64,000 bases of DNA from Acinetobacter sp. NCu2D-2 (GTDB taxonomy: Bacteria > Pseudomonadota > Gammaproteobacteria > Pseudomonadales > Moraxellaceae). Where the stretch lies: assembly GCF_001647675.1 (NCBI RefSeq), contig NZ_CP015595.1, forward strand, positions 124,001 through 188,000, written 5' to 3'. The notes beneath the pieces are model-generated. The model searched no databases, had not been told where the DNA came from, and saw nothing but the letters and a program-made list of their open reading frames with translations. Numbering within the stretch: the stretch's first letter is position 1; each line of letters begins with the position of its first letter. Both the position numbers and the translations under genes were made by a program. Positions 26,290 to 44,236 of this stretch are shown piece by piece.

Positions 26290-26317
26290 ATTTAACATAA
26301 TCTATATTATACGAAAT
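26290..26317 (-). other. pdif site 1 (XerD-XerC orientation)
   Basis: 28-bp Xer recombination site: XerD arm ATTTAACATAA, spacer TCTATA, XerC arm TTATACGAAAT. Leftmost site of the array; an IS1202-type element begins 6 bp to its right. Confidence 0.88.
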
Positions 26318-26323
26318 TAGATT

Positions 26324-27805
26324 TGTAAGCCCAAAGTAGAAATGTCCGGTTTCTCCAAAGTAAAAATGTCCGCTTTTAGAATATGTGCTTTTGCAATTAT
26401 CGAAGCGGACGGTTTGATATGTTGGTGTCTATGTCGGATAAAGAACTTAAACGATCGTTAGTCTTGCAGGAAATCTGTGATCAACGCTTAACCCAGTCCC
26501 AGGCTGCTCAGCTACTTCATATCTCAGAACGTCAGATCAGACGCTTACTGCAGAAATACAAAGCTCAAGGTCCCGCTGCATTAGCCCATGCCGGTCGTGG
26601 CCAAATTAGCAATTCCAAACTTCCTGAAGAACTCAGACTCAAGTGCCTCAATATTGTTTCTGACCAACTCTATGGTTTCGGACCCACTTTAGCGCATGAA
26701 AAGCTCACTACCGTACATGGATTCGATCTTTCAGTAGAAACCCTGCGTTCTTAGATGATTGCAGCTGACTTATGGATTCCTCGATCCAAGCGCCTGAAAT
26801 GCCCGTATCAGCCTCGTTACAACCGGGATTGCTTTGGTGAACTGATTCAAATTGATGGCTCACACCATGACTGGTTTGAAGGACGCGCTGCTAAATGCTG
26901 TCTGCTGGTGTTTATCGATGATGCTACAGGAAAATTGCAGCATTTACGCTTCTGTGAATCAGAATCAACCTTTGACTATATGATTTCGACACGCCTGTAT
27001 GTCGAACAGCATGGCAAACCTTTAGCATTTTACAGCGATAAACATTCAGTGTTTAGGGTGAATCAAAGCAGTAAGAAAGACACCAAGATTACCCAGTTTG
27101 GACGTGTACTCAGCACCATAAATATCGATATCATCTTCGCCAATTCACCACAGGCCAAAGGCCGTGTGGAACGTGCCAACAGAACCCTTCAGGACCGTCT
27201 GATCAAGGAGATGCGCCTGGAAGGCATCTGTTCGATTGAGCAAGCGAATGCCTAGCTACCCTGCTTCATTGAGCAGTTCAATCTCAAGTTTGCAAAGATG
27301 GCCTTTAATCCCAAGGATCTGCATCGGACTGTCATTGAAACAGCCGAAGAATTAGATGATATTTTTACCTGGCGTGAACCCCGCAGAGTCACGAACAGCC
27401 TGACGATCACTTATGATAAATGCGTATATATCTTGGAAAACATAGAAGAAAATCAAAGGTTAATCGGCAAGTATCTTGAGTTCCTAGAATATCTGGATGG
27501 TACTGTAGCCATTGAATATCAGGGAAGAAAAATCAATTACAGCATCTTCGATAAATTAAGTCAGCTCAATCAACGAGAGATCGTTGAGAATAAACGTTTG
27601 GGTTCTGTGCTGGCACATATTCAACAACAGCATGAACAATTGGAACAACAAAACAAACGCAATCGTTCTCAAAAGATGCCACGTAGACGAGCACAGAAAA
27701 CAGCAATTCAACAACGAAATCTGAATCCTGTACTTGACTTGGAAATGTCCATATAGGACATTTCTATTTGGTTATTAGGTAGGACATTTCTACTTGGGAA
27801 TAACA
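26324..27805 (+). mobile_element. IS1202/ISNCY-type insertion sequence (pdif-associated)
   Basis: 1,482 bp with 24-bp imperfect inverted ends (left begins TGTAAGCCCAAAGTAG, reverse complement of right begins TGTTATTCCCAAGTAG; both continue AAATGTCC). It begins 6 bp beyond the XerC arm of pdif site 1. A second, truncated left end of the same element lies at 44242, 5 bp beyond another pdif site. IS elements of the ISAjo2/IS1202 group are known to insert at this position relative to Xer sites. No clear target duplication is seen on the right. Confidence 0.8.
26419..27756 (+). pseudogene. IS1202/ISNCY-type transposase with two in-frame amber stops
   Basis: The reading frame runs uninterrupted in phase from 26419 to 27756 except for TAG codons at 26752-26754 (after 'SVETLRS') and 27253-27255 (after 'SIEQANA'). 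Both sit where related proteins have a bulky residue, so TGG to TAG (Trp) changes are plausible. The HTH is 'RLTQSQAAQLLHISERQIRRLLQKY'; the DDE core has 'IQIDGSHHDWFEGRAAKCCLLVFIDDATG', 'AFYSDKHSVFRVN' and 'SPQAKGRVERANRTLQDRLIKEMR'. The product would be ~445 residues if read through. As written it is inactive. Confidence 0.87.
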
Positions 27806-27857
27806 TGAAAAATTAAGACTATAACCTTAATTTTTATGTATTTTTTTAAATTTAAGA

Positions 27858-27881
27858 CCTAGGCCGGTGCCTAGGTTTTTT
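27858..27881 (+). terminator. Terminator abutting pdif site 2
   Basis: Perfect stem CCTAGGC / GCCTAGG with a CGGT loop and T6, ending at the base before the pdif XerC arm. The ~60 bp before it resemble the tail of the geneless module at 37632-37709. Confidence 0.9.
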
Positions 27882-27909
27882 ATTTCATATAAGAGATTTT
27901 ATGTTAAAT
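27882..27909 (+). other. pdif site 2 (XerC-XerD orientation)
   Basis: XerC arm ATTTCATATAA (one change from the usual ATTTCGTATAA), spacer GAGATT, XerD arm TTATGTTAAAT. Opens the metal-exporter module. Confidence 0.85.
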
Positions 27910-30951: not shown

Positions 30952-30979
30952 AATTCGTATAACCGCCATTATGTTAAAT
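30952..30979 (+). other. pdif site 3 (XerC-XerD orientation)
   Basis: XerC arm AATTCGTATAA, spacer CCGCCA, XerD arm TTATGTTAAAT. Opens the arsenic-resistance module. The spacer is identical to that of site 13. Confidence 0.92.
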
Positions 30980-30988
30980 GGGGCGGAT

Positions 30989-31417
30989 TTATTTAATCCG
31001 CTTACCATTTTTATCGATGATTATTTCACCATCCTCTTTGATAAAAGCTCCTAATTGAGGTGCAGACAAAATATCTAAAACGAGTTCAGATGGTCTACAA
31101 AGTTTTACACCGATCTCAGTTACTACGAATGGACGATTAATCAAAATTGGATACTCAAGCATAAAATTAATGAGCTGTTCATCTGTCCAGTGTGGCTGAT
31201 CCAATTTATGTGTTTCAAAAGGTTCTACATTTTTACGAATAGCTTCATGTACAGAAAGACCTGATTTTTCAATTAAATTAATCAGTTCTCTCTTGCTCGG
31301 AGGGTTGAGAAGATACTCAATAATTTCAGGTTCCTCTCCGGTATTTCGAATTAAAGCCAGTGTATTTCTTGATGTTCCGCAAGCAGGGTTGTGATAGATC
31401 TTAACTTTTGATGACAT
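30989..31417 (-). CDS. arsC: Arsenate reductase, glutaredoxin-linked
   Basis: A 142-residue ArsC of the E. coli plasmid R773 type, reducing As(V) to As(III) with glutathione/glutaredoxin. The active-site loop is 'YHNPACGTSRNTLALI' (catalytic Cys13) and the anion-binding arginines lie in 'LINRPFVVTEIGVKLCRP'. It is transcribed away from arsR-acr3-arsH; the 82-bp gap between arsC and arsR should hold both promoters. Its stop lies 10 bp from the pdif site. Confidence 0.94.
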   Translation of the reverse strand: MSSKVKIYHNPACGTSRNTLALIRNTGEEPEIIEYLLNPPSKRELINLIEKSGLSVHEAIRKNVEPFETHKLDQPHWTDEQLINFMLEYPILINRPFVVTEIGVKLCRPSELVLDILSAPQLGAFIKEDGEIIIDKNGKRIK

Positions 31418-31499
31418 TGGATTAACTCAAAGCTTAGTAATATTGCATTTATATATGGATATGCGTATATTCGCAATAGCATATATTTGAGTGTAGATT
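31418..31499. promoter_or_regulatory. arsC / arsR divergent control region
   Basis: The gap holds an imperfect dyad around 31452-31491, ATATATGGATATGCG facing CGCAATAGCATATAT, as expected for an ArsR operator serving both directions. Confidence 0.6.
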
Positions 31500-31814
31500 A
31501 TGGATCAAGCAGATTTCTTTAAATGCCTATCTGACCCGACACGTCTAGATATTTTAAAAATTATTTTAGAAAGACAAAATGTATGTGTTTGTGAAATCAC
31601 AGAGATATTACAACTGAGCCAACCTAAAATTTCTCGTCACTTGGCTTTACTCCGTAACCTTTCAATTTTGCTAGATGAGCGCAAGGGACAATGGGTGTAT
31701 TACCGATTAAATCCTGATTTACCAGAATGGGTAAATGCAGTGTTCAGTGTTTTGAATGATGAAGTATTAAATAAACCTACGAGCAACTTATCTATCTCTA
31801 TGCAATGCGAGTAA
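31500..31814 (+). CDS. arsR: Arsenite-responsive repressor ArsR
   Basis: A 104-residue winged-helix repressor with the arsenite-binding cysteines in helix alpha3 as '[26 protein letters not shown]', the classic ELCVCDL-type site (CxC). The HTH follows directly. It starts the ars transcript, 4 bp ahead of acr3. Arsenite binding releases it from the dyad upstream and induces the efflux operon. Confidence 0.94.
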
Positions 31815-31818
31815 TTCA

Positions 31819-32859
31819 ATGTCCGCATCAAAGCTCTCATTCTTAGATCGAAACCTAACTCTATGGATTTTCATTGCCATGGCATTAGGCGTAGGTATTG
31901 GGGTGTTTTTCCCTCAAACATCTGTTGTATTAGATCAATTAAGCATTAATTCAGTGAATATCCCTATCGCAATAGGGCTTATTTTGATGATGTATCCACC
32001 ACTTGCCAAAGTTAACTATGCAACCTTGCCTAAAGTCTTTGAGGATAAGCGTACCCTTACATTATCTCTTGTTCAAAACTGGATCATTGCACCTTGCTTA
32101 ATGTTTGGCTTGGCCATTATTTTTCTGCACGCCTATCCTGAATATATGACTGGCCTAATTCTCATAGGCTTAGCTCGATGTATTGCGATGGTCCTCGTCT
32201 GGAATGGTCTGGCATGTGGGGATAATCAATATGTTGCTGCCTTGGTTGCGTTTAACAGTATCTTCCAGATCTTATTCTTTAGTACTTATGCCTGGTTATT
32301 CTTAACCTTCTTACCACCATTCTTTGGGGTAGAAGCACAAATCATTAATGTGAGCTTTTGGACAATTACCCATGCTGTTCTTATTTATCTAGGTATTCCG
32401 TTCTTACTTGGGTTTTTAACCCGATTGATTTTGGTTAAAAAGAATGGTTTGGCTTGGTATCAGGATAAATTTATCCCAAAGATTAGCCCAATCAGCCTTA
32501 TTGCCCTTTTATTCACGATTGTGGCCATGTTCAGTCTTAAAGGTGGTGAAGTGATTAGCCTTCCTCTAGACGTGCTTAGAATAGCTATTCCTTTGACGAT
32601 CTATTTTGTTGCAATGTTCTTCCTCAGCTTCTTTATGAGTAAGTGGATGGGCAATGACTACCCCAAAACGACTGCTATTTCCTTTACAGCCGCAGGCAAC
32701 AATTTTGAATTAGCACTGGCTGTAGCGATTGCCACTTTTGGATTAGCTTCACCTGTAGCTTTCACAACAGTAATTGGACCGCTTGTTGAAGTGCCTGTAT
32801 TGATTGCCTTAGTGACAGTTTCGCTATGGCTTAGAAAAAAAGTTTTTAAAGAGGTATGA
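31819..32859 (+). CDS. acr3: Arsenite efflux permease ACR3
   Basis: A 346-residue inner-membrane arsenite:H+ antiporter of the ACR3 (BART superfamily) type with ten hydrophobic helices. It carries the functional cysteine in '[33 protein letters not shown]' (TM4, conserved Cys) and the conserved '[21 protein letters not shown]' helix. The stop overlaps the arsH start by 4 bp (ATGA). Exports the arsenite made by ArsC. Confidence 0.95.
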
Positions 32860-33569
32860 ATCTAATGAACTTACCAAATATTGATCTTAGTCTTTTAGAA
32901 AAACCGACTTTAGAAAAAGTTCAGGCAAAGAACCTTGAACATCCTCCAAGAATACTGCTTCTGTATGGCTCAAATCGTGATAGATCCTATAGCCGTTTAG
33001 CTATTCAGGAAGCTGGTCGAATCCTTGAATATTTTGGTGCGGAAGTGAAAATTTTCCATCCAAAAGGACTACCTCTCCCTGAAGATGGTGATATGCAACA
33101 TCCAAAGGTTAAAGAACTACATGAACTCTTAGCATGGTCAGAGGGCATGGTTTGGTGCTCTCCCGAGCGTCATGGCTCAATGAGTTCGATATTGAAAGCT
33201 CAAATTGACTGGATTCCATTAGCAGCAGGAGCAATACGTGCCACGCAAGGTAAAACCTTAGCTGTAATGCAAGTATGTGGCGGCTCTCAGTCCTTTAATG
33301 CAGTAAATCAGTTACGTATTTTAGGCCGTTGGATGCGTATGATTACGATACCAAATCAGTCCTCAGTTCCTAAAGCATTTCTTGAGTTTGAAGAGGATGG
33401 TCGTATGAAGCCTTCTTCTTATTACACGAGGATCGTTGATGTGATGGAAGAACTTTATAAATTTACGCTTTTAACTAGAGGACAGTCCGCATATCTCACT
33501 GACCGTTACTCTGAACGTGTAGAAAGTGCGGAAGAGCTTTCAAAGCGTGTGAATCAAAAGAGTATTTAG
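32856..33569 (+). CDS. arsH: NADPH-dependent FMN reductase ArsH
   Basis: A 237-residue flavodoxin-fold ArsH. '[46 protein letters not shown]' is the FMN-binding loop (GSxRxxSxSR type) and '[23 protein letters not shown]' the conserved substrate-side segment. ArsH oxidises trivalent organoarsenicals and gives broad arsenic resistance. Last gene of the ars operon, 11 bp before pdif site 4. An ATG 12 bp downstream of the first is an alternative start. Confidence 0.94.
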
Positions 33570-33579
33570 ATTTTCCTAA

Positions 33580-33607
33580 AATTAACATAATACACGTTAT
33601 ACGAAGT
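33580..33607 (-). other. pdif site 4 (XerD-XerC orientation)
   Basis: XerD arm AATTAACATAA, spacer TACACG, XerC arm TTATACGAAGT. Closes the ars module and opens the yafQ-dinJ module. Confidence 0.93.
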
Positions 33608-33608
33608 T

Positions 33609-33637
33609 AAAAATTGGAGCTTAAGCTCCCATTTTTT
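33609..33637. terminator. Terminator beside pdif site 4
   Basis: Palindromic stem GGAGCTTAAGCTCC with A-run left and T-run right, so it can act in both directions: ending the minus-strand toxin operon and blocking read-through from ars. Confidence 0.85.
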
Positions 33638-33676
33638 AAAGATAATTTTAAAATTTACTGCTGAAAATTAGGTCAC

Positions 33677-33967
33677 TTAAATTGCCAATTCACTATGACT
33701 ACCTAACCTAACTAATTTCAAAATTAGTAGTTCGCCTTCCTCTGTTTTTTTATAGATCAAAACAAGATCTGGTTTGATATGGCAGTCACGATGACCTACC
33801 CAATTACTGACCAAAGCATGGTCACGATACTTTTCAGGCAAGGCTTCATCAGCTTGCAATAACTCTAAAACAGTTTGTAGTTCAGCATCTACTGTATTTC
33901 GATGCTGCCCTTTTTTCTCACGTTTATAGTCTTTCTTGAATGCTGATGTGTACTTAATCGTCCGCAT
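33677..33967 (-). CDS. yafQ: YafQ-family mRNA interferase toxin
   Basis: A 96-residue type II toxin of the YafQ/RelE superfamily. 'FKKDYKREKKGQ' at the N-terminus and the catalytic-type C-terminal segment 'NWVGHRDCHIKPDLVLIYKKTEEGELLILKLVRLGSHSELA' (His, Asp and Arg/His residues as in YafQ) are clear. It overlaps the antitoxin gene by 14 bp. YafQ toxins cut mRNA at the ribosome. Complete, unlike the copy at 30558. Confidence 0.92.
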   Translation of the reverse strand: MRTIKYTSAFKKDYKREKKGQHRNTVDAELQTVLELLQADEALPEKYRDHALVSNWVGHRDCHIKPDLVLIYKKTEEGELLILKLVRLGSHSELAI

Positions 33968-34214
33968 TTAGATCAGCCATCAAATCTTTTACAGAAGTGA
34001 AGCTCTTTGCTTTGCTTAGATCTTCTTCCATTGCAGCAATGGTTTCAGCACTGGGTTGCCAAATTTCAAAAGGCAGAGCCTTTTCTTTCGCTACTTTGGT
34101 TAACAACAAGCGAACGGCATCTGAGACAGTTAAGCCCATTGTTGCAAGAACTTCAGTTGCTTCATGCTTAATGTTTTCGTTAATGCGAGTAGTTACTAGT
34201 GCATTTGAAGCCAT
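33954..34214 (-). CDS. dinJ: DinJ/RelB-family antitoxin
   Basis: An 86-residue ribbon-helix-helix antitoxin paired with the intact YafQ toxin. Identical to the orphan copy at 30632. RHH motif 'ALVTTRINENIKHEATEVLATMGLTVSDAVRLLL'; acidic C-terminus 'SVKDLMADLNADD' for toxin binding. Promoter dyad 12 bp upstream of the ATG. Confidence 0.94.
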   Translation of the reverse strand: MASNALVTTRINENIKHEATEVLATMGLTVSDAVRLLLTKVAKEKALPFEIWQPSAETIAAMEEDLSKAKSFTSVKDLMADLNADD

Positions 34215-34225
34215 GTTAAGCTCCT

Positions 34226-34246
34226 GTGATTAACATTGTTAATCAC
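34226..34246. promoter_or_regulatory. Antitoxin autoregulation dyad (copy B)
   Basis: Same GTGATTAAC-ATT-GTTAATCAC dyad as at 30904, upstream of the intact dinJ-yafQ operon. Confidence 0.8.
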
Positions 34247-34273
34247 ACTATATTCTTAGATGAAGAAAAGTTC

Positions 34274-35753: not shown

Positions 35754-35770
35754 GAAGTTTAGATAATAAA

Positions 35771-36217: not shown

Positions 36218-36221
36218 ATTA

Positions 36222-36344: not shown

Positions 36345-36490
36345 TCATTACTTATCAATCTTACTAGAAACCCATGTTAACTTTATATTGTTATACTTAC
36401 GATATAAAACTGATTTCATTGAAAATAAATTTTTATAAATGAGTTATTTTTATCTTTTTATAAAATTATTAAATATATATATAAAAAAAC

Positions 36491-36518
36491 TTGATTTATA
36501 ATATTTTTAGTGTATAGT
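36491..36518 (+). promoter_or_regulatory. Candidate promoter and long leader of the cold-shock gene
   Basis: TTGATT, 16-bp spacer, TATAGT. A start near 36525 gives a ~150-nt 5' leader before the ATG at 36674, as is usual for cspA-type genes whose leader controls temperature-dependent translation. The rest of 36345-36673 is AT-rich and shows no gene. Confidence 0.55.
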
Positions 36519-36673
36519 TAATTTAACTAGAAAAAAGTCTTGTTCCGGTAAATCTTCTTTAAGTATCGCAGTTTTAGTCATAATCCTTCGTTTTTTCAGA
36601 TTTTAAGTCGTTCTTTATTATTTTCAAAGTTATACCCAGTCAATAAATTGATTAAAAATTAGTAGGATATATT

Positions 36674-36889
36674 ATGTCAAACTCAAATGTTGTTAAAGGT
36701 ACTGTTAAGTGGTTTAACGAAACTAAAGGTTTTGGTTTCATTCAACAAGAATCAGGTCCAGACGTTTTTGCTCATTTCAGCGAAATCGCGAGTTCAGGCT
36801 TCAAAACCTTAATGGAAGGCCAAATGGTTGAATTTAGTGTGGCTCAAGGTCAAAAAGGACCGAATGCTGTAAATATTGTTGCTATCTAA
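36674..36889 (+). CDS. Cold-shock protein (CspA family)
   Basis: A 71-residue single cold-shock domain with both RNA-binding motifs: RNP1 'KGFGFIQQ' and RNP2 'DVFAHFS'. It binds single-stranded RNA/DNA as a chaperone. TAGGA ribosome-binding site 8 bp upstream. A terminator follows at 36908. Cold-shock genes are common cargo of Acinetobacter plasmids. Confidence 0.96.
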
Positions 36890-36907
36890 GTAATAATAGA
36901 CAGTAAT

Positions 36908-36934
36908 AAAAAGCACTCATAAGTGCTTTTTTTA
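36908..36934 (+). terminator. Terminator of the cold-shock gene
   Basis: Stem AGCACT / AGTGCT with loop CATA and a T7 run, 19 bp after the stop. Confidence 0.9.
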
Positions 36935-36945
36935 TACTTTAAAAT

Positions 36946-37215
36946 TTGTTTTATAAATTGAAAAATCTCGAAGAAATAGGATATAAGTTGTTAAAAATAA
37001 ATAATTTAATTGCAAAATCTAAAAATGGTACTGAAATTATTGTTTCATTAATTCCCCTTCATAAAATGCAAAATACACGTCAAGGTTTTAAAGAAATTGA
37101 AGTCGGTAAAAGAGTTCTGCTGGAATCCGGAATCGAAGTGGATTTAAATTTAGATGGCCGTACATTTTATACTTCTCTAAATCAGCTATTTAAATTAAAC
37201 CATAAAGTTGCTTAG
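36946..37215 (+). CDS. Hypothetical protein next to the cold-shock gene
   Basis: An 89-residue open frame from a TTG; no ATG start is available near the beginning, so the true N-terminus is unclear. Sequence such as 'KSKNGTEIIVSLIPLHKMQNTRQGFKEIEVGKRVLLESGIEVDLNLDGRTFYTSLNQLFKLN'. Not recognised. It may be related to the following small protein: both end in a 'D/GxxFxxxxxQLF/MLF' segment. Confidence 0.5.
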   Translation: MFYKLKNLEEIGYKLLKINNLIAKSKNGTEIIVSLIPLHKMQNTRQGFKEIEVGKRVLLESGIEVDLNLDGRTFYTSLNQLFKLNHKVA

Positions 37216-37283
37216 ATTTAAAATTAATAAACATCAATAATTTAGGTTTATTTTTTCACTATAATTTTATTAAAAGGCTATAT

Positions 37284-37481
37284 ATGTTTAAACAGAGTCT
37301 CAGCGTGAAAGATCAGTTTGGGGTTAAACACATGATTCAAGCAACAGTGGATCATCAGTTTGCCAATACGCAATCTCATTCGAATATAAAACATATCACC
37401 GTTGATGGTGAAGATATTCGACCTAGTTTTGAAATGCTTTTTCAAAGTACCTTAAGTGGAAAAATATTCAAAATCATCTAG
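37284..37481 (+). CDS. Small hypothetical protein of the cold-shock module
   Basis: A 65-residue protein (MFKQSLSVKDQFGVKHMIQATVDHQF... ending 'PSFEMLFQSTLSGKIFKII') with an ATG start preceded by AAAAGG. No family recognised, no membrane segment. Last gene before pdif site 8. Likely in the same transcript as the preceding open frame. Confidence 0.55.
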   Translation: MFKQSLSVKDQFGVKHMIQATVDHQFANTQSHSNIKHITVDGEDIRPSFEMLFQSTLSGKIFKII

Positions 37482-37603
37482 AAATATAGTTTTTATAAAA
37501 TCTATAGTCTGAATGAAATATCAGAATCTACTCGCTAGAATGCGGGTTTTTTTATACCGAATTGAATAGCCACTAATTTGTAGACACTTTATAGTTCTTC
37601 TAA

Positions 37604-37631
37604 AATTAACATAATACACGTTATACGAAGC
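37604..37631 (-). other. pdif site 8 (XerD-XerC orientation)
   Basis: XerD arm AATTAACATAA, spacer TACACG, XerC arm TTATACGAAGC. Closes the cold-shock module. Confidence 0.92.
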
Positions 37632-37709
37632 TCTAAAACTGAGTTTATAACACTGATTTTTATGTATTTTTTTAAAGTTTAAAGCCTAGACCAGTGTCTA
37701 GGCTTTTTC
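37632..37709. other. Geneless 78-bp module between two pdif sites
   Basis: Contains only an AT-rich stretch and a terminator: CCTAGAC / GTCTAGG-like stem (37685-37701) followed by CTTTTTC, ending directly at the next pdif. The sequence is clearly related to 27820-27881 before pdif site 2. Probably the eroded tail of a former gene-bearing module. Confidence 0.8.
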
Positions 37710-37737
37710 ATTTCGTATAACAACCATTATGTTGAAT
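37710..37737 (+). other. pdif site 9 (XerC-XerD orientation)
   Basis: XerC arm ATTTCGTATAA, spacer CAACCA, XerD arm TTATGTTGAAT (one change). Opens the XRE/EamA module. Confidence 0.88.
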
Positions 37738-37743
37738 GATCTG

Positions 37744-38289
37744 CTAATGAATAACATTTCTCACAAATTTTACCTGTTCATCACTTTTATTATGATATGA
37801 GTACAAAGTAGAGCTGGAAAAAATAAACGAATCTTCAGGGCCTAGAATCTTAAATTGACCTTCAATTTCAAGTGTTAACTCTCCATGGATGATATAGAGC
37901 ATTTCTTTCCAGCCTTCTGGATCAGGTTCAGCTATATAAGAATCGCCAGCTGCTAGTGACCATATCCACATTTCTGTCTGTGTACCGTTATCCACTGTAC
38001 CCAGTAAATTTGCATAGCTTTCTGTATGATTGCCTTTCCAAGCTAAGATATTTGTACAAGAGTGTTGAATTTTTGAATCTAGCGGACTAACTAAAGTACT
38101 AAAACTAATATTTAGGGCATTTGCTATAGCATCTAATTTAGCCAAACTAATATTTATTTGATCTGCTTCTAAAGCAATTATTGTACGTCTGCTTACCCCT
38201 GAACGATCAGCAAGCTCTTGTTGAGTCAGTTCTATTTTCTCTCGAAAAAAACGAATATTTTTTCCTAAAAATTCAAGGACAGTGTTCAT
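37744..38289 (-). CDS. XRE-cupin transcriptional regulator
   Basis: A 181-residue regulator: N-terminal Xre HTH (LGKNIRFFREKIELTQQELADRSGVSRRTIIALEADQINISLAKLDAIANAL) and a C-terminal cupin barrel (WIWSLAAGDSYIAEPDPEGWKEMLYIIHGELTLEIEG...EDSFIFSSSTLYSYHNKSDE), the PuuR-like architecture in which the cupin senses a small molecule. It is divergent from the EamA exporter, with two related dyads in the shared gap. Start ATG at 38289. Confidence 0.9.
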   Translation of the reverse strand: MNTVLEFLGKNIRFFREKIELTQQELADRSGVSRRTIIALEADQINISLAKLDAIANALNISFSTLVSPLDSKIQHSCTNILAWKGNHTESYANLLGTVDNGTQTEMWIWSLAAGDSYIAEPDPEGWKEMLYIIHGELTLEIEGQFKILGPEDSFIFSSSTLYSYHNKSDEQVKFVRNVIH

Positions 38290-38311
38290 TCTGAGTATTC
38301 ACAAGTTTAAT

Positions 38312-38327
38312 GTGCAATATATTGCAC
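38312..38327. promoter_or_regulatory. Operator 1 for the XRE-cupin regulator
   Basis: Perfect 16-bp palindrome GTGCAATATATTGCAC in the divergent promoter gap. Confidence 0.78.
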
Positions 38328-38352
38328 TATAAACAAGATGGATGCAATAATA

Positions 38353-38368
38353 GTGCAGTATATTTCAC
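38353..38368. promoter_or_regulatory. Operator 2 for the XRE-cupin regulator
   Basis: GTGCAGTATATTTCAC matches operator 1 at 14 of 16 positions, 41 bp downstream (about four helical turns) and 14 bp before the exporter ATG. Confidence 0.7.
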
Positions 38369-38381
38369 TTTAGATTTTGTA

Positions 38382-39260
38382 ATGTCCTTAATTCATGTCT
38401 TAAAAGAAAGATTACCTCCTGAGATCGTACTTGTATTTATAACTATGATTTGGGGAGGAACCTTTTTAGCTGTTCACTATGTCCTTAATTACACGACTCC
38501 TATTTTCTTTGTTGGTTGCCGATTTCTGGTTGCTGCTATGATTTTGCTTATTTTTACGTTTAAGTATCTAAAAAAGATAAGTAAAGATGATGTTATTGCG
38601 GGTATTTCGATAGGTGCCGTACTAGCACTTTCATACGGACTTCAAACTATAGGTTTAAAGACGATAACAAGTAGTGAGTCTGCATTTTTAACAGCACTAT
38701 ATATTCCTCTTGTACCAATATTAATCTGGATTTTTTATCGGAAGCTTCCAAATATCTTTATTTGGATTGGAATATTTTTTTCCTTTATTGGTTTGATACT
38801 TCTAACAGGGAATGATTTTAGGGGCGTTAACTTTAATTTAGGACAAATTTTTACTCTTTTGAGTGCGCTGGGAATAGCCCTTGAAATCATTTTGATCAGT
38901 AAGTTTGCAGGTAGAGTCGATTTAAAGAATGTCACTATCATCCAATTAGTAGTAGCGTCTATTTTCTGTTTTTTTATCATGCCTTTCGCAGGAGAAACGG
39001 AAATTCCTAATATTTCATGGCAACTCGTAGTAGTTACATTAAGTCTGGGATTTGCCAGCACACTCATTCAATTTGCTATGAATTGGGCACAACGTACTGT
39101 AGATCCTTCTAGGGCCGCTATTATCTATTCAGGTGAGCCTGTTTGGGCAGCAATATTCGGAAGGCTGGCAGGAGAGCGTTTACCCTTTTTAGCTCTTATT
39201 GGTGGGCTTTGTGTCATTTTAGGAATATTAATTAGTGAGATAAAAACTAAAAAGAAATAG
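38382..39260 (+). CDS. EamA/DMT-family inner-membrane exporter
   Basis: A 292-residue drug/metabolite transporter with ten hydrophobic helices in two EamA repeats ('VFITMIWGGTFLAVHYVLNYTTPIFFVGCRFLVAAMILL' opening repeat 1; 'LSLGFASTLIQFAMNWAQRTVDPSRAAIIYSGEPVWAAIFGRLAGERLP' in repeat 2). The start is taken as the ATG at 38382; an upstream in-frame ATG at 38310 would put the operators inside the gene. Probably an amino-acid or metabolite exporter controlled by the divergent XRE-cupin repressor; substrate unknown. Confidence 0.9.
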   Translation: MSLIHVLKERLPPEIVLVFITMIWGGTFLAVHYVLNYTTPIFFVGCRFLVAAMILLIFTFKYLKKISKDDVIAGISIGAVLALSYGLQTIGLKTITSSESAFLTALYIPLVPILIWIFYRKLPNIFIWIGIFFSFIGLILLTGNDFRGVNFNLGQIFTLLSALGIALEIILISKFAGRVDLKNVTIIQLVVASIFCFFIMPFAGETEIPNISWQLVVVTLSLGFASTLIQFAMNWAQRTVDPSRAAIIYSGEPVWAAIFGRLAGERLPFLALIGGLCVILGILISEIKTKKK

Positions 39261-39282
39261 TTTTATTATTGAGTTTCTCTAA

Positions 39283-39310
39283 AATTAACATAATACACGT
39301 TATGCGAAGT
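39283..39310 (-). other. pdif site 10 (XerD-XerC orientation)
   Basis: XerD arm AATTAACATAA, spacer TACACG, XerC arm TTATGCGAAGT. Opens the relBE module. Confidence 0.92.
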
Positions 39311-39311
39311 T

Positions 39312-39340
39312 AAAAATGGGAGCTATAAGCTCCCATTTTT
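39312..39340. terminator. Terminator beside pdif site 10
   Basis: Perfect GGGAGCT / AGCTCCC stem (loop ATA) with flanking A and T runs; ends the minus-strand toxin-antitoxin operon and overlaps the toxin stop by two bases. Confidence 0.88.
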
Positions 39341-39632
39341 AATCTTTAATTCGCTTTTTCGCTTCGTCATAAACTATGCTATCAGCTCGTTTTTCGACGG
39401 TAATGAGCAGGATAACTACCTGATCATCTTTAACTTGATAGACAAGTCGGACACCCGCTTTTAATAATTTGATTTTATAGCAACCTGCAAGATCGCCTCT
39501 AAGCATGTTCTTTGGAATATGTGGCTGCTCTATGACTTTAGCTAGTTTCTTTTTAAATTGATCTCGTATAGCAACAGGGAGTTTTTCCCATTCTGCTGTA
39601 AAGTCCTTGTGACGTAAAAGCTTATAAGTCAT
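39339..39632 (-). CDS. relE: RelE/ParE-superfamily toxin
   Basis: A 97-residue RelE toxin: 'YKLLRHKDFTAEWEKLPVAIRDQFKKKLAKVIEQPHIPKNMLRGDLAGCYKIKLLKAGVRLVYQVKDDQVVILLITVEKRADSIVYDEAKKR' shows the conserved 'LRGDLAGCYKIKLRxAGYRLVY' core with the basic catalytic residues of RelE mRNases. It overlaps the antitoxin by 11 bp and is downstream of it. Complete. Confidence 0.94.
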   Translation of the reverse strand: MTYKLLRHKDFTAEWEKLPVAIRDQFKKKLAKVIEQPHIPKNMLRGDLAGCYKIKLLKAGVRLVYQVKDDQVVILLITVEKRADSIVYDEAKKRIKD

Positions 39633-39870
39633 CTAATGTGACTTCCTCAAACATCTCTTTAGGATCGTTAATGCGCTTACGGACAAGGGCTAATAATTCT
39701 TCATCTTCTTCCGAAAGCAAAGCTTTTTTGACGGGCAGTTTCCCAGTCGTAGCAACATACTCAAGAATACTAGTAAAGAAATCCGTAGGTGCAATACCTT
39801 GCTCTTTAAGGATTGAATAAGATTTTTCTTTAAGGGCTTCATCGACCCTGAAGTTAACAGTAGCCATCAT
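39622..39870 (-). CDS. relB: RelB-family antitoxin
   Basis: An 82-residue ribbon-helix-helix antitoxin (ATVNFRVDEALKEKSYSILKEQGIAPTDFFTSILEYVATTGKLP), with an acidic C-terminal toxin-binding part ending 'EEVTLDDL'. Start ATG 39870 (or the next Met); ATGs slightly upstream are possible. A perfect promoter dyad lies 32 bp upstream. Confidence 0.92.
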   Translation of the reverse strand: MMATVNFRVDEALKEKSYSILKEQGIAPTDFFTSILEYVATTGKLPVKKALLSEEDEELLALVRKRINDPKEMFEEVTLDDL

Positions 39871-39902
39871 ATTTCCCAAGTGTTTAATGTACTAGGATTA
39901 GT

Positions 39903-39921
39903 GTAATGCAAATTGCATTAC
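39903..39921. promoter_or_regulatory. RelB operator dyad
   Basis: Perfect palindrome GTAATGCAA-A-TTGCATTAC upstream of relBE. Confidence 0.8.
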
Positions 39922-39927
39922 AAGTCG

Positions 39928-39955
39928 ACTTCGCATAACAGCCCTTATGTTAAAT
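39928..39955 (+). other. pdif site 11 (XerC-XerD orientation)
   Basis: XerC arm ACTTCGCATAA, spacer CAGCCC, XerD arm TTATGTTAAAT. Opens the pRiA4b-like module. Confidence 0.92.
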
Positions 39956-39960
39956 CAGGT

Positions 39961-40488
39961 TTAAAACTTAATATCATGTGAATTAAAGTAGGTCGGATCA
40001 AACTCTATCTCTCCTATTTCATCCTCGATAATTTGCATGTAATCGTCATATCTTGGATGTTTGGGGTCTTGTAATGCATCTAAAATATCAAGATATCCAA
40101 AAATTCCTCCAATATCTTCAAATGGAGCATGATTTTGACCATCTATACAACATGGATATTTTTTATTTAAATCAGGAGATTGTCTGCTTTCTACAGTAAT
40201 CAAATGTTCCCAACAATCGCCAAAATCATATGTATATATAATTTTTTTACCTACACGTAGAACTTCTTTCAATTTTTGTCTTTTATTGATCTTTTCATGC
40301 TTAATAGTCGTGAATTCATGTAAATGGCTATCTTCCCAATCAAAAGCAGATTGAATTGCCTTATGGAGCCTAGATAAAGTAGCTGCCGATGAAATTTGAA
40401 TAGTTCTCCAGATTTCAGGATCACTACCTAGCAGACTAATTTTTAATTGAAAAACTTCATCAGAAGATTTGAGCTTTACAGTTCCCAT
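39961..40488 (-). CDS. Plasmid pRiA4b ORF-3 family protein
   Basis: A 175-residue protein with the family core (PF07929): 'VFQLKISLLGSDPEIWRTIQISSAATLSRLHKAIQSAFDWEDSHLHEFTT', 'YTYDFGDCWEHLITVE' and 'CCIDGQNHAPFEDIGGIFGYLDILDALQDPKHPRYDDY'. Found widely on plasmids; its molecular function is unknown. Sole gene of this pdif module, with its stop 5 bp from site 11. Confidence 0.92.
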   Translation of the reverse strand: MGTVKLKSSDEVFQLKISLLGSDPEIWRTIQISSAATLSRLHKAIQSAFDWEDSHLHEFTTIKHEKINKRQKLKEVLRVGKKIIYTYDFGDCWEHLITVESRQSPDLNKKYPCCIDGQNHAPFEDIGGIFGYLDILDALQDPKHPRYDDYMQIIEDEIGEIEFDPTYFNSHDIKF

Positions 40489-40527
40489 AACAGCCTAGTT
40501 CTCAAAAAATAGTTTTAGTAAATCTAA

Positions 40528-40555
40528 AATTAACATAATACACGTTATACGAAGT
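40528..40555 (-). other. pdif site 12 (XerD-XerC orientation)
   Basis: XerD arm AATTAACATAA, spacer TACACG, XerC arm TTATACGAAGT; identical over all 28 bp to site 4. Confidence 0.93.
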
Positions 40556-40559
40556 TGAA

Positions 40560-40587
40560 AAAGGGAGCTTAAAGCTCCCTTTTTTAC
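40560..40587. terminator. Terminator beside pdif site 12
   Basis: Perfect GGGAGCT / AGCTCCC stem (loop TAA) with flanking A and T runs; related in sequence to the hairpins beside sites 4 and 10. Confidence 0.88.
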
Positions 40588-40596
40588 TAGTTTTTT

Positions 40597-40878
40597 TTAA
40601 ATTGCTAAGCGTAAATTCAGTGCTTTTACGACTTTAATAACAGTATCAAAGCTTGGATTTACATCGCCAGAAAGTGCTTTATAAAGACTTTCTCGACCTA
40701 AACCAGTGTCTCTTGATAATTGAGCCATTCCTTTAGCTTTAGCAATATTACCTAAAGCTTTTGCAATGAATGCCGCATCACCATTAGATTCATCGATACA
40801 GGCTTGTAGGTAAGCTTGCATATCTTCTTCTGTTTTAAGATGTTCAGCACTGTCCCATTTACGAAGTTTGATAGCCAT
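40597..40878 (-). CDS. HigA-like addiction-module antidote
   Basis: A 93-residue antitoxin of the 'putative addiction module antidote' type (TIGR02684): 'AEHLKTEEDMQAYLQACIDESNGDAAFIAKALGNIAKAKGMAQLSRDTGLGRESLYKALSGDVNPSFDTVIKVVKALNLRL', where the last half is a Cro/C1-type HTH. It directly follows the toxin gene (stop abuts its ATG), the toxin-first order of HigBA-like pairs. Confidence 0.92.
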   Translation of the reverse strand: MAIKLRKWDSAEHLKTEEDMQAYLQACIDESNGDAAFIAKALGNIAKAKGMAQLSRDTGLGRESLYKALSGDVNPSFDTVIKVVKALNLRLAI

Positions 40879-41181
40879 TTACAGCTCCTCCTCTAAATCT
40901 TGTGCTAATTGTAGGGCAAGTTTTATATCTTTACTTTGCGTAGACTTGTCTCCGCCTGCTAAAAGAATAACGACCCTTTGCCCTTGCTTACAGTAATAGA
41001 TCCTGTAGCCAGGTCCAAAGAAGAAACGTAATTCAGAAACACCTTCACCTACTGGTTCAGTATCTCCAAAGTTTCCATCTTCAACCCGATCAATTCGGAC
41101 TTGTATACGTCTTTTTGCCTGCTGGTCTTTTAACTTAGTAAACCAGTCATCAAAGACTTCAGTGGTATATATTGAGTACAT
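40879..41181 (-). CDS. RelE/ParE-type addiction-module killer toxin
   Basis: A 100-residue toxin of the 'addiction module killer' type (TIGR02683): 'FDDWFTKLKDQQAKRRIQVRIDRVEDGNFGDTEPVGEGVSELRFFFGPGYRIYYCKQGQRVVILLAGGDKSTQSKDIKLA'. The start is the ATG at 41181; the longer frame upstream would run through the operator palindrome. First gene of the pair. Confidence 0.92.
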   Translation of the reverse strand: MYSIYTTEVFDDWFTKLKDQQAKRRIQVRIDRVEDGNFGDTEPVGEGVSELRFFFGPGYRIYYCKQGQRVVILLAGGDKSTQSKDIKLALQLAQDLEEEL

Positions 41182-41187
41182 AAGAGT

Positions 41188-41209
41188 AATGTATCCTATA
41201 GGATACATT
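41188..41209. promoter_or_regulatory. Operator of the killer/antidote pair
   Basis: A perfect 22-bp palindrome centred on CCTATAGG (outer halves AATGTATCCTA and TAGGATACATT), 6 bp upstream of the toxin ATG; likely bound by the HTH antidote. Confidence 0.8.
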
Positions 41210-41249
41210 CATGCAAGAAATAAACTTGAATGTATGGGGCTACAACAGA

Positions 41250-41277
41250 ATTTCGTATAACCGCCATTATGTTAAAT
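41250..41277 (+). other. pdif site 13 (XerC-XerD orientation)
   Basis: XerC arm ATTTCGTATAA, spacer CCGCCA, XerD arm TTATGTTAAAT. Opens the BCCT-transporter module; same spacer as site 3. Confidence 0.93.
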
Positions 41278-41304
41278 ATGGTAATTAGATGAATAATAAT
41301 GCTT

Positions 41305-41430
41305 TCAATTGGGTAAAGCTTGCAGAATCCTGCTGAATTTGTAATCATTGCGCCCAAGGGTGTCTAGCTGAATTAAGACAGGTGTTTGTTGTAGTCGAGC
41401 CGCTACAATACTGATAAAGAGCACCTGCAT
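41305..41430 (-). CDS. Possible 41-residue open frame, unidentified
   Basis: Reads MQVLFISIVAARLQQTPVLI then QLDTLGRNDYKFSRILQALPN. The composition looks protein-like, possibly the remnant of a larger gene. No family recognised. Its ATG and that of the divergent small gene share the tetranucleotide CATG. Confidence 0.3.
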   Translation of the reverse strand: MQVLFISIVAARLQQTPVLIQLDTLGRNDYKFSRILQALPN

Positions 41431-41632
41431 GTTTAATTTAAAGAGTTGTAATAAAGCCTCTACGGAAGTATTGACTATAAAAAATGATCTCGAGCTTAAT
41501 TCTGAGCTGCAATTAATTAATAAATATAAAACTTCTACTTCTGAAGATTACAGACAGGCTATTGTTTTGATCTTTAAAGAACGTGGTTACACAAGGTTAG
41601 AAATAGGTCAATTATTTGAAAGTGAATATTAA
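41429..41632 (+). CDS. Small hypothetical protein upstream of the BCCT transporter
   Basis: A 67-residue protein, 'MFNLKSCNKASTEVLTIKNDLELNSELQLINKYKTSTSEDYRQAIVLIFKERGYTRLEIGQLFESEY'-like in character (shown in part), with a C-terminal half resembling a short HTH-type pair of helices (KERGYTRLEIGQLF). No recognised family. No obvious ribosome-binding site, so it is tentative. The 264 bp between it and the transporter ATG are AT-rich without a gene. Confidence 0.45.
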   Translation: MFNLKSCNKASTEVLTIKNDLELNSELQLINKYKTSTSEDYRQAIVLIFKERGYTRLEIGQLFESEY

Positions 41633-41896
41633 CGGTTATTCTTTGCTAGTATATAAGGGAAATATGATTTCGATAGTAAAGCTCTTTATTTCTAAAAATT
41701 TAAAGAGTAATTTTCTTCCTCCATGAAATCACCCATAGTTATTAAGTCTGTTAGAGTAATTTAACAGTTTATTATTTTTTAAAATTCTAAAATGGTTCAA
41801 AGTTTAGCTAAACAATTTAACTTGTTCTGATCATTTTTAATTAATAATAACTAGTTGATTTTATTTATCTCTTTTTTCTTTAAAAACGGAGGATAT

Positions 41897-43867
41897 ATGC
41901 CTTCTAATAAATCATCTTGGTTTTCTAATATTAATCCAAATGTTTTTCTCAGTACTGTAGCAATTATTGCTATTTTCTTGGCTTTAGTTATTTTTGCCCC
42001 GAATTCATTCGAACTGTTAACCCAAAAAATGAACCAGTGGGTTATTAACTCATTTAGCTGGTTTTATGTCCTTTCAGTAGCAGTATTTTTGGTCATGCTG
42101 ATTTATATTGCCTTGTCTGATATGGGGAAAATCAAACTAGGACCCGATCATAGTGAGCCGAAATACGGCAATACTTCCTGGTTTGCAATGTTATTCACTG
42201 CCGGTATGGGGATCGGGCTGATGTTCTTTGGGGTGGCAGAACCAGTAATGCATTATGTCACACCACCAGCGGGTGAACCAGAAACAGTACTAGCTGCGCA
42301 ACAATCGCTTAGAGTGACTTTTTTCCATTGGGGCTTACATGCCTGGGCCATTTATACCTTGGTTGGTCTGTCACTGGCTTATTTTGCTTATCGGCATCAG
42401 TTGCCTTTAAAAATTCGTTCGGCACTATATCCACTGATTGGAAAAAAGATTTATGGTCCAATTGGAGATAGCGTAGATACTTTCGCTACCATTGGAACTG
42501 TATTTGGTGTTGCTACGACATTGGGTTTTGGGGTCACTCAGATTAATTCAGGGCTAAATTACCTATTTGGAATTGAACAAGCACCAAGCACCCAAGTAGT
42601 TCTGATTATTGTAGTCAGTACTATGGCAGCTATATCGGTATTTTTTGGCTTGGATAAGGGAGTTAAACGTCTCGCTGAATTGAACCTGGTACTTGCACTT
42701 TTACTCTTAATATTTGTGTTTATTACTGGTCCAAGTATCTACCTGCTCCAGACCACGATTCAGAATACTGGACAGTATGTTTCTAATCTTTTTGTGATGA
42801 CATTTAATCTTTATGCTTATCAGCCAAGTGGTTGGATTGGTGGTTGGACCATTATGTATTGGGCTTGGTGGATTTCTTGGTCACCATTTGTAGGCATGTT
42901 TATTGCCCGAGTATCTGAAGGACGCAGTATCCGTGAATTTATCGTCGGTGTACTACTGATTCCGACTGGATTTACTCTTATATGGATGGGCTTTATGGGT
43001 AATGCTGCGCTCTTCAGTATTATGCATGAAGCAAATACTACTTTATTAGATGCGGTTCAGCGTGATTCTTCAGTTGCCTTATTTGAATTTCTCAACAACC
43101 TACCCCTCAATTCAGTAACTAGCGTTATTGCGACTTTACTAGTAATGCTATTTTTCGTTACCTCAGCCGATTCTGGATCATTAGTCATAGATTATCTGAC
43201 TGCAAAAAATGAGAACTCACCAACTTGGCAGCGGTTATTCTGGACAGTACTCATAGCATTATTGGCGATTATACTATTGTTGGTTGGTGGGCTTGAAGCT
43301 TTACAGTCAGCCACCATTATGAGTGCACTGCCCTTCACCATAATCATGTTATTGATTTGTTGGGGATTAATTAAAGCTTTGCATCTAGATGTTACCAAAA
43401 TGCATGCTCTGCAGGCAGCGAGAATTACCCCACGTGCAATTCAAAATCCACGTAGCTGGCAGCAGCGATTGGGCCTTATTATGCATTATTCGCATACTGA
43501 AGAAGAGGTACAGGCATATATTCAATCTACTGTGAATAAAGCATTTGTCAGCTTTCAAAGTGAACTAAAACGTCGACAGTTACAGGTCAAGCTGACTAAG
43601 TTAGAAAATGGTATGCAGCTGCGAGTGGATCACCAGAATGAAATGAATTTTATCTATCAGGTCATTGCGACTAAGACTTTAAGTCCAAGCTTTATGTCTG
43701 ATATGGGTACTAATGAAGATAACTCCTATCAAGCTGAAGTTTTTTTAAGAGAAGGTGGTCAGGGCTATGATGTAATGAAGTGGACTGAAGAAGACTTATT
43801 ACAGGACATCATCGATCAATATGAACGTCATTTACACTTTTTGAGTTTGGTACGCATATCGGAATAA
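41897..43867 (+). CDS. BCCT-family transporter (Na+-type glycine-motif)
   Basis: A 656-residue betaine/choline/carnitine transporter with 12 membrane helices; the start at 41897 has CGGAGGA upstream, better than 41855. The TM3 motif reads 'GMGIGLMFFGVAEPVMHY': the second-last glycine position is Gly as in Na+-coupled BetP, not Asp as in H+-coupled choline BetT. The TM8 signature 'WAWWISWSPFVGMFIARVSEGRSIREFIVGV' gives the aromatic substrate box. A ~150-residue C-terminal cytoplasmic domain follows (from 'RSWQQRLGLIMHYSHTEEEVQAYIQ'). It is pdif-bounded cargo, separate from the bet locus at 49.6-56 kb. Substrate probably glycine betaine or a related compound. Confidence 0.92.
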   Translation: MPSNKSSWFSNINPNVFLSTVAIIAIFLALVIFAPNSFELLTQKMNQWVINSFSWFYVLSVAVFLVMLIYIALSDMGKIKLGPDHSEPKYGNTSWFAMLFTAGMGIGLMFFGVAEPVMHYVTPPAGEPETVLAAQQSLRVTFFHWGLHAWAIYTLVGLSLAYFAYRHQLPLKIRSALYPLIGKKIYGPIGDSVDTFATIGTVFGVATTLGFGVTQINSGLNYLFGIEQAPSTQVVLIIVVSTMAAISVFFGLDKGVKRLAELNLVLALLLLIFVFITGPSIYLLQTTIQNTGQYVSNLFVMTFNLYAYQPSGWIGGWTIMYWAWWISWSPFVGMFIARVSEGRSIREFIVGVLLIPTGFTLIWMGFMGNAALFSIMHEANTTLLDAVQRDSSVALFEFLNNLPLNSVTSVIATLLVMLFFVTSADSGSLVIDYLTAKNENSPTWQRLFWTVLIALLAIILLLVGGLEALQSATIMSALPFTIIMLLICWGLIKALHLDVTKMHALQAARITPRAIQNPRSWQQRLGLIMHYSHTEEEVQAYIQSTVNKAFVSFQSELKRRQLQVKLTKLENGMQLRVDHQNEMNFIYQVIATKTLSPSFMSDMGTNEDNSYQAEVFLREGGQGYDVMKWTEEDLLQDIIDQYERHLHFLSLVRISE

Positions 43868-44021
43868 ACTTTTATAAAAAAAGACGCTACATTGATAACT
43901 TCCCCCCTATATTTTTAATGAAAGAAGGGGGGGAGGTAATCCCGCGTAAAAATTGATTATTTTTCTATAAACTCAACATATAAAGCTGGACTGCTCCCAG
44001 TATCCTAGACATTAGACAGCC

Positions 44022-44165
44022 TCATTTTGAAGCTGCCTCAAAGGCTTCTGGACTCATCCCATCGAGATGCGAATGACGCCTGATTCGATTGTAAAACATC
44101 TCGATATAATCAAACACATCTGCACGTGCCATTTCTCGTGTTTTATAGATCAAGTGCAAAGTCTT
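44022..44165 (-). pseudogene. IS3-family OrfB C-terminal remnant
   Basis: The minus strand encodes '...[40 protein letters not shown]', the typical C-terminus of an IS3-group OrfB transposase, followed by what looks like the element end (about 43990-44020). The rest of the element is missing to the right, where pdif site 14 begins 43 bp further on. The gap 43868-43990 shows no gene. Confidence 0.8.
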
Positions 44166-44208
44166 AATGATGAGATACAGGTTAAGTAAAATAGTTAAGA
44201 GTTTCTAT

Positions 44209-44236
44209 TATTAACATAATACACCTTATACGAAAT
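44209..44236 (-). other. pdif site 14 (XerD-XerC orientation)
   Basis: XerD arm TATTAACATAA, spacer TACACC, XerC arm TTATACGAAAT. Rightmost site of the array. Confidence 0.92.

Follow-up and report, generated by a model that had tools for sequence, protein, structure and literature searches.

Modules of the pdif arrays of Acinetobacter probably form two heritable lineages, one dedicated to maintenance and the other to cargo. The array described here lies at positions 26290–44236 of a 64,000-nucleotide stretch of Acinetobacter sp. NCu2D-2 (contig NZ_CP015595.1, positions 124,001–188,000), referred to at its full length as the window. Its 14 sites are all dif-like and 28 bp long (11+6+11), with a 6-bp spacer between a XerC and a XerD arm, and are labelled DC or CD after the order of these arms. 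Modules of the C phase run from a DC to a CD site, with the XerC arms inward, and those of the D phase from a CD to a DC site, with the XerD arms inward. The C phase is the maintenance phase. Constancy of phase, the division of content between the phases, a recurrent hairpin and two classes of site are features borne out by the sequences themselves. The alternation of phases was already known, and we rate the phase–content rule as a new regularity in a known system, which extends to terminators and site classes.

An earlier sequence-only reading of the window had listed fourteen sites, and a search allowing up to three mismatches returned exactly these 14, against 0.00 expected from 100 dinucleotide shuffles. 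In the rest of the genome the same search gave one exact site, presumably the chromosomal dif, and one three-mismatch match, both on C1. That reading had claimed alternation without exception, bar one site lost at the second IS5 copy. Twelve of the 13 adjacent pairs do alternate, and the sole break, between the CD sites at 27882 and 30952, is indeed associated with an insertion sequence (IS), namely the first IS5-family copy (~29506–30557) and not the second. The segment holds a CDF exporter, a short MerR-like open reading frame (ORF) recognized by eye, the IS5-family copy, whose flanks show no matching target duplication when read by eye, and an orphan dinJ; this fits a D+C fusion at the IS copy, in which a deletion removed a DC site and most of yafQ. 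The DC-to-CD segments had been described as toxin–antitoxin (TA) pairs or their relics, which holds for YafQ–DinJ, the HigB-like toxin with its helix-turn-helix (HTH) partner, ParE–RelB, HI1419/HI1420 and the terminator-only module at 37632–37709, whereas the segment taken for an IS1202-type element is a 76-bp terminator module beside an IS1202-family element. The CD-to-DC segments do carry cargo, as had been said (ars, DinB, cold-shock, XRE-cupin/EamA, pRiA4b and BetT), the CDF exporter being the D part of the fusion. Four TA pairs in the window have ORFs for both partners, and matches to type II TA families in adjacent genes predict the pairs YafQ–DinJ, ParE–RelB, HI1419–HI1420 and one that joins a RelE-family toxin to an HTH protein.

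Module content by phase in Acinetobacter

The comparison covered 195 records including the window (2.73 Mb). They contain 892 sites of at most two mismatches, which delimit 699 segments (244 of the C phase, 339 of the D phase and 116 between sites of the same orientation). The records comprise 180 genome loci, 178 of them from 42 genomes picked by listed site positions (first-listed or site-rich) and two flanking the window, and 14 plasmid stretches, eight of which came from a list of similarity to the window; some records share an origin (L045/L046 and L103), and some loci are stretches of one plasmid. TA genes were detected with a panel of 31 proteins from annotated TA genes, chosen regardless of phase; Doc, VapBC and YoeB went undetected by it. 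The modules were grouped into 330 clusters (98 C, 232 D) at thresholds of 75% identity and 70% mutual cover. Two C segments longer than 12 kb were left out of the module counts, modules below 40 bp out of the clustering, modules below 150 bp out of the end-terminator test, and one multi-TA segment out of re-phasing with three-mismatch sites.

TA genes were detected in 102 of the 242 C modules, as against 3 of the 339 assigned to D, and the difference persisted after clustering (33 of 98 C clusters vs 2 of 232 D clusters; Fisher p=1.7e-17). The enrichment of TA genes in one phase that the sequence-only reading had proposed to look for is therefore supported in other Acinetobacter loci. Among 75 loci with TA modules, 73 had them in C only, one in D only and one in both. 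No cluster out of 330 contained modules of both phases, 87 of them (324 modules) having more than one member. Nine toxin families, including VapC, occur in C, and TA modules adjoin many different D modules, with for example 16 different ones in 16 neighbour slots. A test of pair differences, in which the fillings between the same flanks differed by zero (24) or two (11) modules and never by one, was discounted as evidence, such parity being imposed by alternation itself.

In the first plasmid set, 17 of 34 TA units lay in C modules (one in a 30-kb segment), 11 in fused segments and four in D modules, all of L102, and two were unbracketed. A held-out set comprised ten further plasmids, for which choice and prediction were fixed before retrieval and TA genes were taken from each record's own annotation. 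Eight of its 11 TA units lay in C; for one of these, the BrnTA of L195, the C segment is long. Of the other three, the BrnTA of L203 is at the XerC end of a fused segment, one unit is in D and one, on a one-site plasmid, cannot be phased. Held-out cargo lay in D for OXA-72 (3/3), tet39 (2/2), msrE-mphE (1/1) and terC (1/1), the first three accounting for six occurrences of resistance modules, all D; repM was found five times in C, once in a fused segment and twice on one-site plasmids.

The C phase is enriched in TA genes, as the sequence-only reading had it, but it also holds replicons, serine recombinases, IS1202-family elements and terminators. By content, the C clusters divide into Rep3 (32), Rep3 with TA (6), TA (27), serine recombinase (6), IS1202 only (3), modules below 160 bp (11) and others (13), the last including cargo-like genes such as an acetoacetate decarboxylase-family protein and an HNH protein; the D clusters comprise two with TA, one with a serine recombinase and 229 others. 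Rep3, OrfX, MobA and IS1202 were found in 38, 31, 7 and 16 C clusters, respectively, and in no D cluster. The position of the IS1202 elements is explained by the known targeting of this family (ISAjo2 group), which inserts on the XerC side of pdif sites, 5 bp from the XerC arm (PMC10132070).

Several observations weigh against a clean division. Adjacent sites fail to alternate in 116 of 699 pairs, which we read as fusions. Among fused segments with TA genes, these lie nearer the XerC-facing end in 36 of 43 and nearer the XerD end in seven, and when three-mismatch sites are allowed six fused TA segments become C and none D; a VapC identical in two fused loci is likewise bracketed as C by three-mismatch sites. 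Such sites have a background of 0.014 per kb. In one D module (L168), two of them, DC and CD, bracket the TA pair and define a C module. In L102, where the D-phase TA is two copies of one element, a three-mismatch DC site is found on the left only, and on the right a DC candidate with four mismatches beats a CD one with five, so that no C module is closed. Two D clusters contain Doc and offer no convincing hidden site, YoeB-Phd is in D on one held-out plasmid (L204), and the HicAB of the one-site plasmid L202 lies on the XerD side. Since Doc belongs with the Fic proteins of the C phase, this is one superfamily present in both phases. Moreover, Pfam was run on 30 of the 47 proteins encoded by small tandem ORF pairs of D modules (17 of 21 clusters), so there may be further D-phase TAs; the HTH pair of one D module (L041) is a candidate.

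The clear D-phase exceptions, at L037 2981–3555, L075 4046–6380 and L204 8197–8710, are Doc and YoeB. Both toxins are usually paired with Phd/YefM-type antitoxins; here only the YoeB partner is annotated as such. Versions of the finding demanding strict alternation or TA genes only were rejected because of the fusions, Doc, YoeB and the C modules without TA.

The system itself is that of the Rep_3/OrfX dif modules of Acinetobacter described by Hall and co-workers, with the same 28-bp sites, C/D alternation, TA and serine recombinase modules and fused CD modules (PMC13141974, PMC6160057, the latter also using the C and D terms). There, the backbone, higBA2 and abkBA are C, and tet39 and oxa24 are D (PMC13141974); XerCD-dependent recombination has been reported for other pdif sites (PMC11705084, PMC13141974). 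The known arrays are on small Rep_3 plasmids, whereas the present one is on a 310-kb contig, and the ORF-less module of PMC13141974 is a D module, unlike the terminator-only C modules found here. A general phase–content rule was not found in the available parts of PMC13141974, PMC6160057, PMC6449649, PMC11705084, PMC12907356, PMC7885321, PMC9455709, PMC10132070 or PMC9947245, or in literature searches, and may be in print in other dif-module work; terminators at XerC ends, terminator-only C modules and the two spacer/XerD-arm classes were likewise not found in the accessible portions of the literature searched.

By architecture only, pdif arrays resemble integron cassette arrays, in which directional small modules are shuffled by a tyrosine recombinase at short sites. 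In chromosomal integrons, too, TA pairs are frequent. The pdif arrays differ in that their modules are of two alternating kinds, gained and lost pairwise.

Terminators, spacers and site arms

The two phases also differ at their ends. Fifty-eight C modules are shorter than 160 bp (24–140 bp) and mostly terminator-like, the shortest D module being 205 bp; a strict terminator pattern is present in 31 of the 49 unique C modules below 150 bp, against 1.2 in shuffles. Terminator-like structures occupy 41% of 54 ends of C modules with TA, 32% of 44 ends of other C modules and 2.6% of 464 D ends (shuffles, 2.4% for C modules with TA and 1.2% for D). Different TA families share a hairpin of the form GGGAGC..GCTCCC. 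All 66 copies found no more than 60 bp from a site are on its XerC side (45 with a unique context) and none on its XerD side; another 39 copies are more distant. An independent terminator scan of the window gave 27 sites against 11.9 in shuffles: four adjoin DC sites at the ends of C modules, two fall in the terminator modules, one is at a D end and the rest are inside modules.

Short C modules gave 249 matches to C modules, 237 of them at ends, and nine to D modules. The proposal that terminator modules are deleted TA modules was set aside, as descent was not shown and the displayed examples matched mainly two modules. The pdif arms were also considered as promoters, an idea dropped with 37 consensus promoter-like sites, fewer than the shuffle mean of 63.

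The sites fall into two classes according to the end of the spacer (read from C to D). Of 263 distinct sites with spacers ending in GTA, 250 have the XerD arm TTATGTTAATT and 133 a TTAGA flank past the arm; of 185 with spacers ending in CCA or CCC, 170 have TTATGTTAAAT and 2 have the flank. One GTA-class and one other end are found in 207 of 232 D clusters (49% expected) and, as a weaker fit, in 68 of 98 C clusters. Modules with the same spacer at both ends number 2 of 339 in D and 10 of 242 in C (8% expected), and GTA status is shared by 691 of 1,043 direct site pairs and 409 of 1,395 inverted pairs.

A flank of approximately TTAAG..TTTCTAA is conserved just past the XerD arm of GTA-class sites in all loci, at the ends of D modules. 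It is as if the GTA-class sites were longer than 28 bp.

Mechanism and competing explanations

Because the two arms of a pdif site are distinct, neighbouring modules are forced to alternate between XerC-inward and XerD-inward, a geometric necessity already published (PMC13141974); the two-phase order to which the sequence-only reading drew attention is present, but it is not evidence of selection. Constancy of phase is deduced from the exchange itself, since XerCD recombination would leave the inward arms unaltered and a module would keep its phase through any move, inversion or swap, and it agrees with the data. The C lineage carries the maintenance functions, that is, the Rep_3 backbone, TA pairs and serine recombinase, and its XerC-facing ends often bear bidirectional terminators, some modules being terminators alone. 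For this reason C modules probably work as insulators, which may protect cargo from TA read-through and vice versa. The D lineage carries cargo, mostly without end terminators. With two spacer classes at opposite module ends, inversion should be disfavoured and pairwise excision and like-for-like swaps favoured, because exchange has been observed between like spacers (PMC13141974, PMC9947245); gain or loss of C+D pairs and swaps would then outnumber single-module inversions, and gains and losses of TA genes would often coincide with those of cargo. Retention of cargo by the TA genes is what we infer from this.

Published observations agree with several of these steps. Efficient recombination requires like spacers, cointegration has been described between sites sharing GGTGTA and between T/CCGCCA sites (PMC11705084), and excision of C+D pairs between directly oriented like-spacer sites has been detected by polymerase chain reaction (PCR; PMC13141974). 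Two plasmids differ naturally by relBE plus SMI1/KNR4 (PMC7885321), and a loss of relBE plus ferredoxin has been deduced (PMC9947245). The sequence-only reading had spoken of modules travelling, which is suggested by their differing neighbours across arrays and by the PCR excision in print; no movement was observed here.

Other points tell against parts of this scheme. The two spacer classes were defined from the data in which they were then tested, C clusters fit them less well, and inversions between like-spacer sites have been published (PMC13141974, PMC9947245). The relBE–ferredoxin loss joined sites whose spacers differ at three of six positions (PMC9947245), and tested cassettes were not excisable, even relBE between directly repeated sites (PMC11705084). 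As to insulation and the holding of cargo, only 10.5% of 76 backbone (C-rep) ends have terminators, one terminator-like hairpin (30981–31003) is at a D end, many C modules have no TA, the window has a spare antitoxin, and relBE is inferred in print to have been lost with cargo (PMC7885321, PMC9947245). The complete scheme, a two-alphabet cassette system of C maintenance-insulator and D cargo modules kept apart by recombination geometry, with site classes favouring pairwise exchange and cargo generally leaving with a TA or a terminator, is put forward only as a tentative proposal. If true, it would be a built-in means of holding and insulating cargo.

The same division could have arisen with no selection or function, if the few TA modules that founded the arrays were C by chance and, phase being unchangeable, all later ones descend from them. 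We consider this frozen accident less likely than not. Phase is constant in all 87 multi-member clusters, and the same hairpin stands beside different TA families, as if genes had been replaced in a common scaffold. The founders may also be few, as YafQ, HigB, ParE, Gp49/HI1419, RelE118 and, by fold, BrnT belong to what we take to be a single RelE/ParE group. On the other hand, the toxins of the C phase represent, by our assumed grouping, at least four superfamilies (RelE/ParE-like, HicA, VapC PIN and Fic), and with 98 of 330 clusters being C the probability of their all falling there is ~0.8% for four independent founders and ~2 in 100,000 for nine; moreover, the same bias is seen for the serine recombinase, replicon and terminators. 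Selection could instead have kept TA genes and cargo in opposite phases, if excision takes out as many C as D modules, so that most routes to cargo loss also cost a TA. Such phase-coupled addiction agrees with the published C+D excision (PMC13141974), with the variety of D modules beside TA modules, and with TA genes being what accessory C clusters most often hold (27 of the 46 clusters of 160 bp or more that lack Rep_3 and are not IS alone). It accounts for opposite phases but not for the TA genes taking C, and published work infers that relBE has been lost naturally together with cargo (PMC7885321, PMC9947245). Furthermore, 58 of 242 C modules are below 160 bp and without TA, so adjoining cargo could leave at no cost; the orphan DinJ, identical to that of an intact module, would soften addiction in the window; frequent plasmid loss has been doubted at more than five copies per cell (PMC13141974); and tested cassettes showed no excision (PMC11705084). 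On balance, we regard this explanation as unlikely.

Accessory C modules might also be the remnants of plasmid backbones captured in cointegrates, which lost rep and kept TA, recombinase and terminators. The C repertoire resembles a plasmid core repertoire, six C clusters combine Rep_3 with TA, and cointegrates are common (PMC13141974). However, site-like matches with three or four mismatches are found inside three of the six Rep3+TA modules, some of which may be fusions and not intermediates, and backbone ends mostly lack the terminator typical of TA-module ends. We regard this origin as unlikely, too. Finally, the split could result from the choice of window-like loci or from unrecognized TA genes in D: eight of the first 14 plasmids came from the window-similarity list, Doc, VapBC and YoeB escaped the 31-reference panel, certain loci repeat the same plasmid, and genomes were first-listed or site-rich and not drawn at random. 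Yet the genome loci were picked by site positions with genes ignored, near-identical modules were clustered before cluster counts, the held-out plasmids, scored by their own annotation, gave eight C, one fused, one D and one unphased unit out of 11, and the terminator and spacer asymmetries are independent of gene calls. An artefact of this kind is very hard to believe.

In Acinetobacter, resistance to carbapenems, tetracycline and macrolides is carried on pdif modules. A phase–function rule makes module annotation and the detection of fusions more predictable, and it pointed to places to seek decayed sites, several of which were found. It also makes testable what TA modules do, namely keep the plasmid, keep neighbouring cargo or merely ride along.

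The array of the window and its surroundings

The genome measures 3.05 Mb in two contigs, of which the second (309,964 bases) bears the array. Plasmid records matching it number 1,769, none covering 80% of the array in one place; since 1,239 of them are from Acinetobacter, the contig is probably an Acinetobacter megaplasmid. Rep_3 was not found in the array's own segments, the remainder of the 310-kb contig not having been searched for rep.

Features of the pdif array in window coordinates (spacers read from C to D)
Feature	Coordinates	Strand	Remarks
pdif DC	26290..26317	-	spacer TATAGA; perhaps the plasmid's resident site, left array edge
IS1202-family element, transposase frame interrupted	26324..27805	+	XerC side of 26290 site; without matching target duplication; NF033594 match of open piece 26755-27255
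Terminator-only C module, 76 bp	27806..27881		adjoins IS1202-family element
pdif CD	27882..27909	+	spacer GAGATT
Fused D+C segment	27910..30951		CDF cation exporter 28059-29351 (-), short MerR-like ORF (by eye), IS5-family copy 1 ~29506-30557, orphan dinJ 30632-30892 (-)
pdif CD	30952..30979	+	spacer CCGCCA
D module, ars	30980..33579		ArsC (-), ArsR, SBF/ACR3-type exporter, FMN-reductase-family ArsH-like protein; ACR3 and ArsH names from annotated relatives
pdif DC	33580..33607	-	spacer CGTGTA
C module	33608..34273		YafQ 33677-33967 (-), DinJ 33954-34214 (-); terminator at DC end
pdif CD	34274..34301	+	spacer CAGTCA
D module	34302..35066		DinB-family protein 34296-34805 (-), last bases overlap site; 62-residue ORF
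pdif DC	35067..35094	-	spacer TCTGTA
C module	35095..36189		HigB-like toxin 35168-35488 (+, Pfam RelE), HTH antitoxin 35481-35753 (+); terminator at DC end
pdif CD	36190..36217	+	spacer TATCCA
D module	36218..37603		cold-shock protein 36674-36889 (+), small ORFs
pdif DC	37604..37631	-	spacer CGTGTA
Terminator-only C module, 78 bp	37632..37709		
pdif CD	37710..37737	+	spacer CAACCA
D module	37738..39282		XRE-cupin regulator 37744-38289 (-), EamA transporter 38310-39260 (+)
pdif DC	39283..39310	-	spacer CGTGTA
C module	39311..39927		ParE-like toxin 39339-39632 (-), RelB antitoxin 39622-39879 (-); terminator at DC end
pdif CD	39928..39955	+	spacer CAGCCC
D module	39956..40527		pRiA4b ORF-3-like protein 39961-40488 (-)
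pdif DC	40528..40555	-	spacer CGTGTA
C module	40556..41249		HI1420-type antidote 40597-40878 (-), HI1419/Gp49-type toxin 40879-41208 (-); terminator at DC end
pdif CD	41250..41277	+	spacer CCGCCA
D module	41278..44208		BetT choline BCCT transporter 41855-43867 (+), 67-residue ORF
pdif DC	44209..44236	-	spacer GGTGTA; opens right-hand C module, no further site found
IS1202-family left-end remnant	44242..44295	+	5 bp from XerC arm; by likeness to 26324 element; right limit approximate

The protein of the orphan DinJ is identical to the DinJ of the intact module (33954–34214) and could, from its sequence, serve as a spare antitoxin.

IS1202-family sequences border the array at both edges in the same orientation (26290–27881 and 44209–44300). 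As described for the ISAjo2 group (PMC10132070), the left element is on the XerC side of its site and the right remnant is exactly 5 bp from the XerC arm of the 44209 site. Elements of this kind are expected to have TGT..ACA ends and a 5-bp duplication. Unlike in that group, the left copy is 6 bp from the arm and its flanking repeats are unmatched; because this copy has no matching repeats, recombination between two IS1202-family copies may have brought the array into the plasmid.

The pdif pattern is present in 169 of 175 Acinetobacter genomes; in PLSDB, 1,421 Acinetobacter plasmid records matched a query with one site under a loose cut-off. More than one exact site is found in 4 of 158 genomes of other Moraxellaceae. 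One non-Acinetobacter genome of the family has six exact pdif-like sites, nearly all others having one or none. Sites with the spacer TATAGA or TATTGA are located at array edges or alone on large contigs (window 26290; L019 15075; L088 630; L040 7697; L114 39222) and may be the resident sites where arrays settle.

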